Below, one piece after another: positions 39,163-64,000 of a stretch of DNA of 64,000 nt (the first letter of the stretch is position 1; every line of letters starts with the position of its first letter). The translations under genes were made by a program, and so were the position numbers. The stretch lies in contig NC_009135.1 of assembly GCF_000016125.1 (NCBI RefSeq), positions 434,001 to 498,000 on the forward strand, given 5' to 3'. Source of the stretch: Methanococcus maripaludis C5. Its GTDB lineage: Archaea; AGJL01; Methanococci; Methanococcales; Methanococcaceae. Below the pieces are notes generated by a model. It was not told the DNA's origin. It searched no databases and saw nothing but the letters and a program-made list of their open reading frames with translations.

Positions 39163-39180
39163 ATAATGATTAATCATTAT
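39163..39180. promoter_or_regulatory. Perfect 18-bp palindrome before the aminotransferase gene
   Basis: ATAATGATTAATCATTAT is a perfect palindrome, 36 bases before the GTG at 39217. TATA-like elements flank it (CATATATA at 39128-39135 and TATATATAAT at 39191-39200). It is a candidate operator; the factor is unknown. Confidence 0.5.
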
Positions 39181-39216: not shown

Positions 39217-40344
39217 GTGATTGCAGAAAGGTGTTTGGGAACAGAACAGTCCGAAATTCGTAAAATATTTAACATGGCGACAGAAAACTCGATAAATCTG
39301 GGGATTGGAGAACCGGATTTTGATACTCCAAAGCACATTGTCGAAGCTGCTAAATCGGCTCTCGATGCTGGAAAAACGCATTATGTTCCAAATGCAGGAA
39401 TCCCAGAATTAACTTCTGCAATTTCTGAAAAATTGAAGAAAGATAATAAATTAGATATTTCACAAAAAAATATTGTCACGACTTGTGGAGCTTCTGAAGC
39501 ACTTATGCTTTCATTATTTACGCTCGTAAACCGTGGCGAAGAAGTTTTAGTTCCTGATCCAGGTTTTGTTTCATACAAAGGTTTAACTGAACTTTGCGAA
39601 GGAAAAATGGTTCCAATTGATCTGGATGATAAATTTAGAATTGATTTGGAATCTGTAAAAAACAGTATTTCAGAAAAAACAAAATGTATTGTTTTAAATT
39701 CGCCATCAAACCCGACAGGAAGTGTGATGACAAAGGAAGAAATTAAAGGAATCTGTGAAATTGCAGACGAAAAAAATATCTGTGTAATTTCTGATGAGAT
39801 ATATGAAAAGATAATTTATGGAAAAAAACACTATTCTGCAATGGAATTTACAGATAACTGTATATTAATTAATGGATTTTCAAAAGCTTACGCAATGACT
39901 GGCTGGAGAGTTGGATACTTGGCAGTAAACGAAAATTTTGATAATAAATACGAAATACTTGAAAACATGATGAAAATCCACCAGTACGGCTTTGCATGTG
40001 CAACATCCTTTGCACAGTTTGGTGCAGTTGAAGCACTTACTGGGGATCAAAATTGCGTTTCAGACATGGTTTCAGAATTTGAAAGAAGAAGGAATTTAAT
40101 TTATTCAGGAATGAAAGAGATATTTAGCGTTCAAAAGCCAGAAGGGGCATTTTATATATTCCCTGATGTTATTGAATATGGAAACGGAATGGATGTAGCA
40201 ACAAAACTCATTCAAAACGGAATTTTGTGTGTTCCCGGATCAGCATTTGGTAAAAATGGAGAAAACAGTGTACGATTCTCATACGCTACAAAATATGATG
40301 ATATTGAAAGAGCATTAAGCATTATGAAAAACGTTCTTCTTTAA
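39217..40344 (+). CDS. Aspartate/aromatic-type aminotransferase, class I
   Basis: A 375-residue class I/II PLP aminotransferase. NLGIGEPDFDTP at the N-terminus, NSPSNPTGSVM (Asn and substrate carboxylate), SDEIYEKIIY (Asp/Tyr) and GFSKAYAMTGWRVGY (Schiff-base lysine) are all intact. It would transfer amino groups between glutamate and oxaloacetate or a related keto acid. The exact substrate is not clear from motifs. The start GTG at 39217 follows GGTGAT. A palindrome upstream may control it. The next gene starts 13 bases downstream. Confidence 0.9.
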   Translation: MIAERCLGTEQSEIRKIFNMATENSINLGIGEPDFDTPKHIVEAAKSALDAGKTHYVPNAGIPELTSAISEKLKKDNKLDISQKNIVTTCGASEALMLSLFTLVNRGEEVLVPDPGFVSYKGLTELCEGKMVPIDLDDKFRIDLESVKNSISEKTKCIVLNSPSNPTGSVMTKEEIKGICEIADEKNICVISDEIYEKIIYGKKHYSAMEFTDNCILINGFSKAYAMTGWRVGYLAVNENFDNKYEILENMMKIHQYGFACATSFAQFGAVEALTGDQNCVSDMVSEFERRRNLIYSGMKEIFSVQKPEGAFYIFPDVIEYGNGMDVATKLIQNGILCVPGSAFGKNGENSVRFSYATKYDDIERALSIMKNVLL

Positions 40345-58158: not shown

Positions 58159-58232
58159 GGGCTGATAGCTCAGACTGGGAGAGTACCGCATTGGCTATGC
58201 GGAAGCCGCGGGTTCAAATCCCGCTCAGTCCA
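58159..58232 (+). tRNA. tRNA-Ala(GGC)
   Basis: A full cloverleaf. The acceptor stem GGGCTGA/TCAGTCC includes the G3:U70 wobble that is the alanine identity element. The anticodon stem is CCGCA/TGCGG with loop TTGGCTA, so the anticodon is GGC. The T stem GCGGG/CCCGC with loop TTCAAAT is perfect. The discriminator is A; the following CCT shows that CCA is not encoded. It is a single tRNA with its own TATA box, divergent from the FAD dehydrogenase gene. Confidence 0.97.
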
Positions 58233-59286: not shown

Positions 59287-60489
59287 TTAAATCAAATTTA
59301 AATTACTTTCTAGGTTTCTTCGAATCCTGTCCTTAATCCAGAGTGAAATCCTATCCCTGTCAACGCTATACATTTCCATTTTTGGAATAATTACTCTTGA
59401 AACATCGATTTCAGTTTTATTTAATTTAACAGTTATGATTTTATCAAAACCGTGCTGTTTCAATGTCTCTTTAACTGTTTCAATGTCTTTGTTAAGATTT
59501 AGTTTTGCATTATTGGGCATATCTTCGATATGTATTTCATTTTTAAATGTGTACCACTTTTTGTGCGCTCTTTTTAGCCTTTCGTAACTTATTCTCCTTA
59601 CAATATCTCCTCGGTTTGTATCTTCTCTTGCCCCATGGATTTGTGTTGCCCTGCTCTGTGCAACTTCTGTTAATGCCCTTAAAACAGCAATTTCTGGATG
59701 TAAATGGCATCCAACGCCCATGCATAAAAGTGCAGGGTCTTTCAATACGTCATCATCGGAAATTGCAGCAACTGTCGGGATTCCTACTTCACTTGTTAGA
59801 TCTTTTAATATTATGTTTATTTTTGCTTTTTTAAATTTTTCAAGGAGTTCAAAAATTAGTGGATTTTTCGCGTTTTCCACATTTAATTTTCTGTACGTGT
59901 TTTTTGAAAGTTCTGAAATACTCCACGCATCTCTTTCGATTACTTCAAGCATTCCGTGAAAAACTGCTTCTTCTTCAGAGTTTCCAGATGCAAGACCATT
60001 GGTATTACTTCTAAATAGTTTTTTTCCGTCATGAGGGTGAACAACACTGTTTATTGGAACATCAAAGGTTTTGCCGCTGATAATATCTTTTCCGAGTACC
60101 CATTCAATTCCATCAGTATCAATATGTTCTGCACTTTTTCCACCGGGAATAATTAAATCATCCAAATTTACGGGGTTTTCAGGTTCTTTTGAAAGTTCAA
60201 GTTTTGAATTTTCATCAAATTCCGCAGAATACCGTTCAATTGCTTCCATTGTGGATGAAACTTTTGCCTGAATTTCAGTAGCGCCTTTTCCAGCGTATAC
60301 GCTGATTGCACCATCTTTTGCAGATGGCCTGATCGATGAAAAAACAGGAATTCCAATTCTATCGAGCCCATCAATTCTCGCAGTTCTCGTAACGCCGATT
60401 TCTTTTATTATCGGTTCTATTTTTTCAAAAGTTTCCTCAGGAGTGCAGATTCTGTAAGCTGCAAGGGTGTAATTAATGTCATCTTCCAT
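59287..60489 (-). CDS. ycaO: YcaO-domain protein, probable McrA thioglycine synthase
   Basis: A 400-residue YcaO protein. The domain covers most of the length: ATEIQAKVSSTMEAIERYSAE, SGNSEEEAVFHGMLEVIERDAWSISE and ALTEVAQSRATQIHGAREDTNR hold the ATP- and Mg-binding glutamates and arginine/glutamine of the family. In methanogens a YcaO with TfuA activates the backbone amide of a glycine in McrA and installs thioamide sulfur. tfuA is not adjacent here (2919-3563). The ATG at 60489 has AGTGAT upstream. Function is by family, not proven for this gene. Confidence 0.85.
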   Translation of the reverse strand: MEDDINYTLAAYRICTPEETFEKIEPIIKEIGVTRTARIDGLDRIGIPVFSSIRPSAKDGAISVYAGKGATEIQAKVSSTMEAIERYSAEFDENSKLELSKEPENPVNLDDLIIPGGKSAEHIDTDGIEWVLGKDIISGKTFDVPINSVVHPHDGKKLFRSNTNGLASGNSEEEAVFHGMLEVIERDAWSISELSKNTYRKLNVENAKNPLIFELLEKFKKAKINIILKDLTSEVGIPTVAAISDDDVLKDPALLCMGVGCHLHPEIAVLRALTEVAQSRATQIHGAREDTNRGDIVRRISYERLKRAHKKWYTFKNEIHIEDMPNNAKLNLNKDIETVKETLKQHGFDKIITVKLNKTEIDVSRVIIPKMEMYSVDRDRISLWIKDRIRRNLESNLNLI

Positions 60490-60511
60490 GTTATCACTTA
60501 AGTTGGTAAGA

Positions 60512-60817
60512 TTAAATTGATTTAATTTCCTTTTTTAAAATTTTTACAATATCATCTTTTGTTTTATCTGGTATAAGTACTGTTTTTTGTGCTGAAGTAG
60601 TTCCCGAATTTATCAATATTTCACTTTTAAAAATTCCCTTTAAAAATTTCATGATTGCTTTATTTGCTTTGCCTTCAATTGGCTGTTCTTTAATTCTTAT
60701 TTCTATTCTTTTACGCCATTCATTAATTTTTCCAATTTCATTTTTTTTAGCGTTTGTAGTAACTTCGATATCAATTAAAATTCCTTTTTCTGATTCTTTG
60801 ACTATTTTCTCAATCAA
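60512..60817 (-). CDS. DUF167/YggU family protein
   Basis: A 101-residue protein with the YggU/DUF167 layout: IDIEVTTNAKKNEIGKINEWRKRIEIRIKEQPIEGKANKAIMKFLKGIF, where the pattern PxxGKANxAxxxFL is diagnostic. Function unknown; a structural link to RNA or ubiquitin-like folds has been suggested for the family. The start is TTG at 60817 with GGTGG upstream. It is the first gene of the leftward pair with ycaO, 22 bases apart, divergent from hdrC. Confidence 0.8.
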   Translation of the reverse strand: MIEKIVKESEKGILIDIEVTTNAKKNEIGKINEWRKRIEIRIKEQPIEGKANKAIMKFLKGIFKSEILINSGTTSAQKTVLIPDKTKDDIVKILKKEIKSI

Positions 60818-60866: not shown

Positions 60867-60886
60867 TATTATACTCGAGTATAATA
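60867..60886. promoter_or_regulatory. Perfect 20-bp palindrome between DUF167 and hdrC
   Basis: TATTATACTCGAGTATAATA is a perfect palindrome about 63 bases before the hdrC start, adjoining TATA-like sequence (TATAATATAT). It is a strong operator candidate. Another self-complementary CCTCGAGG lies at 60933-60940, overlapping the hdrC ribosome site. Confidence 0.6.
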
Positions 60887-60948
60887 TATGATATCGATTA
60901 CCAATAAATATATTATATATAAACCAAAGTATCCTCGAGGTGTTAAGG

Positions 60949-61503
60949 ATGATGAAAGCTGAAGAGTTGAACAAAGGTTTTGTGAACGAAATCATTGAAG
61001 CTGGAACTCCGGTTCCTGGAGAAAAAGAAGTAGCTTCATTAAAATCATGCTACCAGTGCGGTACCTGTACAGGAAGCTGCCCAAGTGGTAGAAGAACTGC
61101 ATACAGGACAAGAAAAGTAATAAGGCAGGCATTACTTGGTATAGACAGTGTTTTAGATAGTGACGACATCTGGAAATGTACAACCTGTTACACCTGCTAT
61201 GAAAGATGCCCAAGAGATGTTAAAGTAACTGAAATCATTAAAACAATCAGAAACTTGGCAGCTAAAAAAGGAAACATGGCAACCCCCCACAAAATGACCG
61301 CAGTATATGTTTTAAAAGCTGGTCACGCAGTACCTGCAAACGACGATACAGCAAAATTAAGAAAATCAATCGGTCTAGCTGAAAAAGCGCCAATTGCACA
61401 ATTCAGCCAAAAAGACATGGATGAAATAAGAACAATTGCTAAAAACTTAAAATTCGATGAATTAATCGGATTTGACTGGAAAACAATGGGTTTAAAACAA
61501 TAA
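60949..61503 (+). CDS. hdrC: CoB-CoM heterodisulfide reductase subunit C
   Basis: A protein of about 184 residues. It holds two 4Fe-4S motifs: CYQCGTCTGSCP and CTTCYTCYERCP. It transfers electrons between HdrA and HdrB in the heterodisulfide reductase complex that regenerates coenzymes M and B in the last step of methanogenesis. GAGGTG at 60937-60942 is the ribosome site; ATG at 60949 is used and the next ATG at 60952 is an alternative. It lies 34 bases upstream of the hdrB start. The codons look optimised for high expression. Confidence 0.95.
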   Translation: MMKAEELNKGFVNEIIEAGTPVPGEKEVASLKSCYQCGTCTGSCPSGRRTAYRTRKVIRQALLGIDSVLDSDDIWKCTTCYTCYERCPRDVKVTEIIKTIRNLAAKKGNMATPHKMTAVYVLKAGHAVPANDDTAKLRKSIGLAEKAPIAQFSQKDMDEIRTIAKNLKFDELIGFDWKTMGLKQ

Positions 61504-61537: not shown

Positions 61538-62419
61538 ATGAAATACGCGTTTTTCCTTGGATGTATCATGCCAAACAGGTACGCTGGTGTTGAATCAGCT
61601 ACAAGAACAGTAATGGAAAAATTAGGTGTGGAATTAGTTGACATGCCTGGTGCATCATGCTGTCCAGCTCCAGGGGTATTTGGTTCATTTGACCAAAAAA
61701 CCTGGTTAACATTGGCTGCAAGAAACTTAGTAATCGCAGAAGAAATGGGAACTGACATAGTTACCGTATGTAATGGATGCTACGGTTCATTATACGAAGC
61801 TGCACACATGTTACACGAAAATAAAGAAGCTTTAGCAATGGTAAATGAACAGCTCAAAGAAGTTGGAAAAGAATACAAAGGAACTGTTCACGTAAGACAC
61901 TTCGCTGAATTAATCTACAACGATCTTGGTGTAGATAAAATCAGAGAAAACGTTGTAAAACCATTAAGTGTAAACATTGGAGTTCACTACGGATGCCACT
62001 TTTTAAAACCAACTTCAGCAAAAGGTTTGGGTGGTGCTGAAAACCCAACCATGCTAGACGAACTCGTTGAAGCAACAGGTGCTAAATCAGTAGCTTACAA
62101 AGACAAAATGATGTGTTGCGGTGCAGGTGGTGGTGTAAGGGCTAAAGAATTAGACCTTGCATTAAGCATGACACAAGAAAAAATCGAAAACATGTTGGCA
62201 GTAGGTGCTGACGCTACAGTTAACGTATGCCCATTTTGCCAGTTACAATTTGACAGAGGGCAAGTTGAAATCAAAGAAAAATTGGGCAAAGAATATGGAT
62301 TCCCTGTTGTACACTTATCACAACTTTTAGGTCTTGCAATGGGTATGGAGCCAAAAGATGTGGCTTTGGACGTAAACTTTATTTCCCCAGAACCATTACT
62401 CCAAAAATTAGGATACTAA
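61538..62419 (+). CDS. hdrB: CoB-CoM heterodisulfide reductase subunit B
   Basis: A 293-residue protein with two CCG domains. The first has [13 protein letters not shown] and [16 protein letters not shown]; the second has [12 protein letters not shown] and [12 protein letters not shown]. These cysteines bind the noncubane 4Fe-4S clusters at which CoM-S-S-CoB is reduced. GGTGAT precedes the ATG at 61538; the frame opens at 61526. hdrA is not in the window. Methanococcus is known to carry two hdrCB pairs; this is one of them, with a regulator gene next to it. Confidence 0.96.
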
Positions 62420-62465: not shown

Positions 62466-63275
62466 TTAAGAAAACATTGGCTGTTCATATGAATCAGTCG
62501 TTTTTGATGCATTTAAAAGAGTGTAGCTTATTTTATTTTTGTCAACCGTTTTTATTATTTTTTCGGCCATTTTTCCAGTAATTATCGCAATAACATCACA
62601 ACCCCTGTTGCATGCAGAAACAATTCCCTCAGAGACTGCAAATCTAATATCTGGATGGATTTCAAGTTTATTTACTATAACTGTTCCAACAGTTCCTGCA
62701 GTTGCAACCACTGCATCAGGATATTCTTCAAAAGTACTTTTTACAATATCATAGTCGACGTTTCTAGATCCTCCCATCACTTCAGAAGGAATTTTTAAAA
62801 AGATAACTTTCCCATTTTGAACGTCAATGTGGCCCTGAATTTCATGAATTGCAACATCTTCTCCCGAATTCCCACCGTAAAATACTTTTGCAGTTGCATC
62901 AGATTCAATATTTTTTGAAACATATATAACTCCCTTTTTCATATATACTCCAACAGTTTCTCCAGGATTTACGTTTTCACTAGCAATTGCGGGCCATACG
63001 TCTTTATAACGGTATAAGTTTTGATTTACATCGTTTAAATAATTTTTAAAGTCTGAAATCCATGTTTTTAACGAAGCCATACCTTTTTCGGTTATTACGT
63101 ATTCCCCTCTTCCTCTATTTTTAATCTGTTCTTCTCTTATGAGGTTTCGCATATGTTCTGAAACTCCTTGAACAGTTATACCCAATATGTCTGCGATTTC
63201 TTTCTGTTTAATATGGGGCTGTTTTCTAACAACTTCTGAAAGTATTTGAAATTCTGTAATATTCCTTTTTTTCAT
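62466..63275 (-). CDS. COG1497-type winged-helix regulator
   Basis: A 269-residue protein. The N-terminal 80 residues are a winged helix (QKEIADILGITVQGVSEHMRNLIREEQI, with RGRGEYVITEKG as wing). The C-terminal 190 residues are an uncharacterised domain with glycine-rich turns (FYGGNSGEDVAI, VVATAGTVGTVIVNK, GCDVIAIITGKM), perhaps a ligand sensor. It matches archaeal predicted regulators of COG1497. It is convergent with hdrB and may regulate hdrCB or itself. A perfect inverted repeat lies 74-93 bases upstream of its start. The ligand is unknown. Confidence 0.75.
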   Translation of the reverse strand: MKKRNITEFQILSEVVRKQPHIKQKEIADILGITVQGVSEHMRNLIREEQIKNRGRGEYVITEKGMASLKTWISDFKNYLNDVNQNLYRYKDVWPAIASENVNPGETVGVYMKKGVIYVSKNIESDATAKVFYGGNSGEDVAIHEIQGHIDVQNGKVIFLKIPSEVMGGSRNVDYDIVKSTFEEYPDAVVATAGTVGTVIVNKLEIHPDIRFAVSEGIVSACNRGCDVIAIITGKMAEKIIKTVDKNKISYTLLNASKTTDSYEQPMFS

Positions 63276-63348: not shown

Positions 63349-63368
63349 GTTAATCTTCAAAGATTAAC
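63349..63368. promoter_or_regulatory. Perfect inverted repeat upstream of the COG1497 regulator
   Basis: GTTAATCTT, two bases, AAGATTAAC: 9-base perfect arms. It lies just upstream of a minus-strand TATA-like element (AGTATATATAC at about 63331-63341). It is a candidate autoregulatory operator. Confidence 0.5.
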
Positions 63369-63504
63369 TTTAATTTGAATCCCAAACAGAATTTTAAAAA
63401 TACTATAATTTAATATAATAATATAAGAAAACTTTAGCTTTAAATTAAATTTAGTAAATTAGAAAAAAGATGAATATCAAAACTTTATTCTATTTAAAAT
63501 AAAA

Positions 63505-63706: not shown

Positions 63707-64000
63707 ATGACAATGGAAATATTGCTTGTAAACGATGATGGGATTTATTCAAATGGTCTTTTAGCACTTAAAAATGTAATAAGTGAAGAATTCGATGCAA
63801 ATATTACGGTTGTAGCACCCACTAATCAGCAAAGTGGTATTGGAAGAGCAATAAGTTTGTTTGAGCCACTGAGAATTACTAAAACAAAACTAGCTGACTG
63901 TTCTGAGGGCTACGCAGTATCCGGAACTCCAACTGACTGTGTTGTTTTAGGGGTACATCAGGTTTTAAAGAAAGTTCCCGATTATGTAATTTCTGGAATA
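63707..64000 (+). CDS. surE: Survival protein SurE, 5'-nucleotidase, 5' part
   Basis: Open to the right edge: 98 codons are visible. The N-terminal ILLVNDDGIYSNGL holds the metal-binding Asp-Asp and is diagnostic of SurE. APTNQQSGIGRAISLFEPL and SGTPTDCVVLGV are the following conserved blocks, with the metal Asn/Ser region. It dephosphorylates nucleoside monophosphates. GGTGA at 63696-63700 precedes the ATG at 63707; a second in-frame ATG at 63713 is less well spaced. A TATA-like element (TGTATAAATATTTG) lies about 45 bases upstream. Confidence 0.95.
   Translation, partial: MTMEILLVNDDGIYSNGLLALKNVISEEFDANITVVAPTNQQSGIGRAISLFEPLRITKTKLADCSEGYAVSGTPTDCVVLGVHQVLKKVPDYVISGI

Follow-up and report, generated by a model that had tools for sequence, protein, structure and literature searches.

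The promoter of hdrC in Methanococcus maripaludis C5 contains a perfect 20-bp palindrome, TATTATACTCGAGTATAATA, which is defined by its sequence, its conservation, its position and a near-exclusive link to hdrC. We infer that it is a binding site: the palindrome is probably the target of a homodimeric transcription factor, encoded elsewhere, that controls hdrCB, most likely by activation. Heterodisulfide reductase is the enzyme that closes the cycle of methanogenesis, and its reaction includes the electron-bifurcating step. From sequence comparison the element is a new, order-conserved putative operator of hdrCB and would belong to a known class of element, the transcription-factor sites. In the open-licence PMC literature we saw no regulator of the hdrB or hdrC subunits in Methanococcales and no description of this site; in the excerpt of PMC3875500, TATTATAC is present in primers only. 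Features are given in Table 1, in coordinates of the window, by which we mean the whole 64,000-nucleotide stretch that was analysed.

Table 1. Features at and around the hdrC promoter, in window coordinates
Feature	Position	Strand	Basis
Putative operator palindrome TATTATAC-TCGA-GTATAATA (= TATTATACTCGAGTATAATA)	60867..60886		Sequence and conservation; predicted site
Left half-site TATTATAC	60867..60874		Site positions 3 and 4 invariant in 42/42 sites
Spacer TCGA, variable; order-wide mostly ANNT	60875..60878		Comparison of sites
Right half-site GTATAATA	60879..60886		Site positions 14 and 18 invariant in 42/42 sites
BRE/TATA region of the hdrC promoter; TATA candidates 60905-60912 and 60914-60921	60903..60921	+	Conserved alignment block; predicted
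hdrC Shine-Dalgarno GAGGTG; overlapped by the second CTCGAG (60934-60939)	60937..60942	+	Sequence, alignment
hdrC, CoB-CoM heterodisulfide reductase subunit C	60949..61503	+	TIGR03290, 221 bits, E 5.1e-66
hdrB, CoB-CoM heterodisulfide reductase subunit B	61538..62419	+	TIGR03288, 508 bits
DUF167 gene, divergent from hdrC; ycaO next on the same strand	60512..60817	-	Family assignment
Winged-helix + DUF7839 gene, after hdrB	62466..63275	-	Family assignment

The initial annotation of this DNA had described a perfect 20-bp palindrome at the hdrC promoter, and the sequence is indeed fully self-complementary. It had also proposed a search for the palindrome elsewhere in the genome; TATTATACTCGAGTATAATA proved to be a single occurrence, both in the window and in its own genome, with up to three mismatches allowed. 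The symmetry by itself is unsurprising, because 81 of 300 dinucleotide-shuffled versions of the window contained a perfect palindrome of at least 20 bp, and this frequency is what favours a functionless palindrome that arose by chance. The hexamer CTCGAG is similarly uninformative: there are five in the window against 2.84 expected, and as at least five were reached in 14 of 100 shuffles, the presence of a second CTCGAG is unsurprising. The centre of the palindrome in the window is TCGA, which is why a CTCGAG was seen there. CTCGAG was rejected as the recognised core because the four central bases differ between the seven Methanococcus genomes. The other copy, CCTCGAGG (60933-60940), overlaps the Shine-Dalgarno sequence, as had been stated, but it is the ribosome-binding region and not a second site, and it reads CCTAGAGG in G002.

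The half-sites are conserved at the hdrC promoter far beyond chance. The exact pattern TATTATAC-N4-GTATAATA is found once per genome in all seven Methanococcus genomes and always ahead of hdrC, so that the check on conservation in other Methanococcus came out in favour of the site. The sample for the order comprised 36 genomes, 35 of which have hdrC (G015, 85% complete, gave no hdrC match), with 59 hdrC copies. The surroundings of all 59 were compared, and each was scored by its best match to TATTATAC-N4-GTATAATA within 240 bp upstream. There were no mismatches in 12 copies, one in 7, two in 11, three in 13, four in 10 and five in 6. Matches with at most two mismatches were present in 30 of the 59 hdrC upstream regions, compared with none of the 329 regions taken ahead of other ORFs at the same loci; six of these controls had three mismatches and the remainder at least four. 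Outside the order, 60 hdrC loci gave one match at three mismatches and none at two. A chance palindrome is refuted by this conservation, and we regard it as practically dismissed.

Selection by locus and position filter gave 42 positioned sites, leaving out 17 of the 59 copies, and the consensus of these sites is TATTATACANNTGTATWATA. Both in this set and in an alignment of ten loci, variation falls in the centre and the half-sites are conserved. A positioned site with at most three mismatches is present in 31 of the 35 order genomes with hdrC. In G011, G012 and G016 the best version at the conserved position has four mismatches, and G009 has hdrC with no site found in the scan of upstream regions of the 35 hdrC genomes. 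Taken together, these results uphold the proposal that the hdrC promoter has a site for a dedicated regulator and show that the initial annotation had understated it, as conservation covers all seven Methanococcus genomes and is order-wide; the CTCGAG core and the second site were wrong, and the choice of a neighbouring gene as the regulator, discussed below, was probably wrong.

Across the genome, more degenerate matches show no clear excess. Genome G000 has 4 matches to the pattern at up to two mismatches compared with 7 for a reversed-pattern control, and 43 compared with 67 at up to three. Since these counts do not clearly exceed the control, the case for specificity depends on exact and near-exact matches. 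A wider regulon is not supported, on the same counts and because, by simple ORF calling, additional near-matches were intragenic at 8 of the 17 loci examined. Among the near-matches, one is intergenic and common to three voltae-like genomes (L263, L265 and L267), where it lies beside an apparent ribosomal-protein gene cluster; the L267 copy coincides in part with a short ORF. A second is common to two of these three genomes (L264 and L266). Control-pattern matches are as numerous as near-matches in the voltae-like genomes. In three of the seven second-copy hdrC loci of g5 (L182, L186 and L188) there is a 3-mismatch match at -106 which lacks the usual TATA spacing and was not counted.

All 22 copies nearest to the hdrC of the window (at least 60% identity) have a recognisable site, 19 at up to three mismatches and 3 at four. 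Of the remaining 37 copies, 20 carry the site. These are the second copy in G033 and in every one of the seven Methanococcus genomes, together with a single copy from each of the 12 g2 genomes. The 17 copies without a positioned site are L166, L168, L182-L189, L191, L201, L202 and L204-L207. Sixteen of these are located among homologues of carboxymuconolactone decarboxylase, desulfoferrodoxin, MTH865-like, ferritin, DsrE or flavoprotein-type genes, and the only siteless hdrC outside such oxidative-stress surroundings is L189 of G009. However, five site-bearing copies (L150, L151, L154, L156 and L164) are also in a stress-gene operon, so the link of the site to methanogenesis is not strict. Each of the five is divergent from a hydrogenase/complex-I large-subunit-like gene, which we take to be ehbN. 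Our reading is that the site is a property of the methanogenic hdrCB promoter, which in some Methanococcus and in G033 also heads a stress operon. This gives a rule that can be checked: hdrCB copies outside the stress operon have the site, and most copies within it do not.

The second hdrCB operon L150, which is outside the window, is headed by hdrCB and contains carboxymuconolactone decarboxylase, desulfoferrodoxin, ferritin, DsrE and flavoprotein-type genes. Its counterpart in the Methanocaldococcus group is without the positioned palindrome. The hdrC/hdrB copy of the window presumably corresponds to MMP1054/MMP1053. Expression of MMP1054 (HdrC2) and MMP1053 (HdrB2) rises slightly, by log2 0.33, under H2 limitation in the excerpted data of PMC2723118. 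In the excerpt of PMC11097638, the operon MMJJ_16800-16910, which includes HdrB/C, desulfoferrodoxin and ferritin, falls by 2.1-2.7 log2 without selenium; its gene content is like that of the second site-bearing (stress) operon. Elsewhere in the window there is a perfect 18-bp palindrome, ATAATGATTAATCATTAT (39163-39180), 36 bp ahead of an aminotransferase ORF (39217-40344). Dyads lettered like it (TCATTATTAATAATGA) also precede some of the second hdrC copies in relatives, with a different order of half-sites.

The ten-locus alignment shows the half-sites, then an interval, then a conserved TATA block. The sequence TWTATATA, with at most one mismatch, is found 15-23 bp downstream of the site in 32 of the 42 positioned sites, compared with 1/42 at +30..+38, 1/42 at +45..+53 and 9/42 in the divergent direction. 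The distance from the start of the site to the start codon is 82-96 bp in 39/42 and 104, 121 and 224 bp in the others, a constancy that the position filter on the 42-site set could slightly favour. By the 26/27-bp rule for the distance from TATA to start (excerpt of PMC5512572), transcription of hdrC is predicted to start near 60935, counted from the first TATA candidate, just before the Shine-Dalgarno sequence. An Rfam search of the window gave a single match, a tRNA at 58159-58232, and none at the site. An element acting at the RNA level was rejected on this negative result and because the site is upstream of the predicted start.

This geometry is that of an upstream activating site, with the BRE/TATA directly downstream at a near-constant distance and with conservation ahead of the same gene across species. 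Because the site is directly upstream of the TATA box at near-constant spacing, activation is the most likely mode of control. In the mechanism that we propose, a homodimeric, sequence-specific factor would bind the palindrome and control the hdrCB operon, and in Methanococcus the same factor would also control the second hdrCB operon. It would contact the two 8-bp half-sites; from centre to centre these are separated by 12 bp, or about one turn of the helix. Bound some 15-23 bp ahead of the TATA box, it would help to recruit TBP/TFB and so act as an activator, and its gene would be located elsewhere and would probably not be the winged-helix neighbour.

The main rival to activation is repression, in which the bound factor would block or bend the promoter from upstream or silence both divergent promoters. 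Perfect symmetry is common among repressor operators and counts for such a role, and the right half-site contains TATAATA, a possible weak TATA which bound protein would cover. However, the conserved TATA is outside the site, which in 32/42 cases ends before the BRE/TATA without overlapping it, and a repressor operator would be expected to overlap. Repressors interfere with TFB/TBP binding or act downstream of the promoter, and EarA and Ptr2 bind upstream of the BRE, according to the excerpt of PMC5512572. We therefore consider a repressor operator unlikely, although it is the strongest of the competing explanations for the site.

Both halves of the palindrome read TATAATA outward, and the divergent DUF167 gene of the window starts about 50 bp away. 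The half-sites might accordingly be back-to-back TATA boxes of a symmetric bidirectional core promoter serving hdrC and its divergent neighbour without any regulator. Against this, the site remains in place at hdrC whichever gene is divergent from it: DUF167 in the maripaludis-like genomes, and ehbN-like or other genes elsewhere. It is even kept at the first hdrC copy of one voltae-like genome, where there is no divergent gene close by. A separate TATA exists downstream of the site, and GTATAATA differs from the TWTATATA box of Methanocaldococcus given in the excerpt of PMC5512572. A bidirectional core promoter is very improbable on these grounds.

The region divergent from hdrC differs between lineages. 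The DUF167 gene and the ycaO gene after it (59287-60817), which is of the McrA-glycine thioamidation type, adjoin the hdrC intergenic region only in the four maripaludis-like genomes. It is possible that hdrCB and McrA modification are under common control in these genomes, as a lineage-specific arrangement.

Two activators described in the excerpt of PMC5512572 have sites placed like the hdrC palindrome. In M. maripaludis, EarA sites lie directly upstream of the BRE of the fla promoter and are required for transcription of the operon; the likeness is in the genus and in this position, but EarA controls other genes and has four 6-bp sites, whereas here there is one 20-bp dyad (PMC5512572). The comparison is one of arrangement. 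In Methanocaldococcus jannaschii, which belongs to the same order, Ptr2 is an activator that binds upstream of the BRE and recruits TBP, but the rubredoxin 2 gene carries several of its sites (PMC5512572). It is because the arrangement is the same as at the EarA and Ptr2 sites that a dimeric activator is proposed at hdrCB. The sequence of the Ptr2 site is, to our knowledge, not TATTATAC-N4-GTATAATA. The operator core of CopY/BlaI-type regulators is TACANNTGTA. The order-wide consensus contains TACANNTGTA, and ACA..TGT is present in 30/42 sites, but the core in the window is TACTCGAGTA, without ACA..TGT. This family was rejected as the binder: PF03965 gave weak matches in 24/36 genomes and none in several that bear the site, e.g. 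G013, G021, G022 and G033. Finally, HrsM, a LysR-type regulator that acts on the selenium-free isogenes of M. maripaludis and for which repressor binding between frc and vhc is described, is another case of transcriptional control of methanogenesis genes in this genus, and the excerpt of PMC11097638 contains no link between HrsM and the hdrC site.

The initial annotation had suggested that the regulator is the winged-helix gene just after hdrB. Binding of the palindrome by this winged-helix + DUF7839 protein is a question of the binder and overlaps with the readings of activation and repression. The gene adjoins hdrB in 5 of the 32 loci examined, out of 34 genomes with the gene, and it is single-copy in 34/36 genomes, a distribution compatible with the role of binder. 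Additionally, winged-helix identity is lowest (52-54%) in G009, where the site is absent, and in G015, which has no hdrC match. However, the gene is not linked to the proposed target across genomes. Its constant neighbour is surE, from which it is divergent in 27/32 loci, and three voltae-like genomes keep the motif while the winged-helix gene is not next to hdrB. The motif is present upstream of the winged-helix gene itself in 0/32 at up to two mismatches and in 2/32 at three, although autoregulation is not universal among regulators. The DUF7839 family is also found in the Haloferax and Methanosarcina controls. Taken together, the winged-helix neighbour is probably not the binder, and we regard this assignment as doubtful. 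A search of solved structures with the winged-helix protein returned one weak match, to an unrelated protein.

An inverted repeat before the winged-helix gene, GTTAATCTTTGAAGATTAAC / GTTAATCTTCAAAGATTAAC (63350-63369, 20 bp with a 2-base centre), was considered as an autoregulatory site and rejected, as it is not conserved even in G001-G003. The divergent pair formed by surE (63707-64000) and the winged-helix gene is the arrangement seen in the 27 Methanococcales loci above. In several Methanocaldococcus-group loci the sequence AATTAAAGTTATCTTTAACATTTAAATA is located between the two genes, and it is a candidate site for the pair.

The site is 20 bp long, near order-wide and near-exclusive to hdrCB, and this makes the regulation of hdrCB directly testable. 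It could be used as bait for purification of the factor and, in a methanogen amenable to genetics, as a defined target for mutating the promoter. A more far-reaching idea, unlikely in our view, is that the factor is a single-purpose, order-wide regulator that has the hdrCB operons as its sole conserved targets and senses a redox, thiol, H2 or selenium cue indicative of how heterodisulfide reductase is faring. If this were true, a single-purpose regulator would adjust, through transcript levels, the final step of methanogenesis in all Methanococcales.
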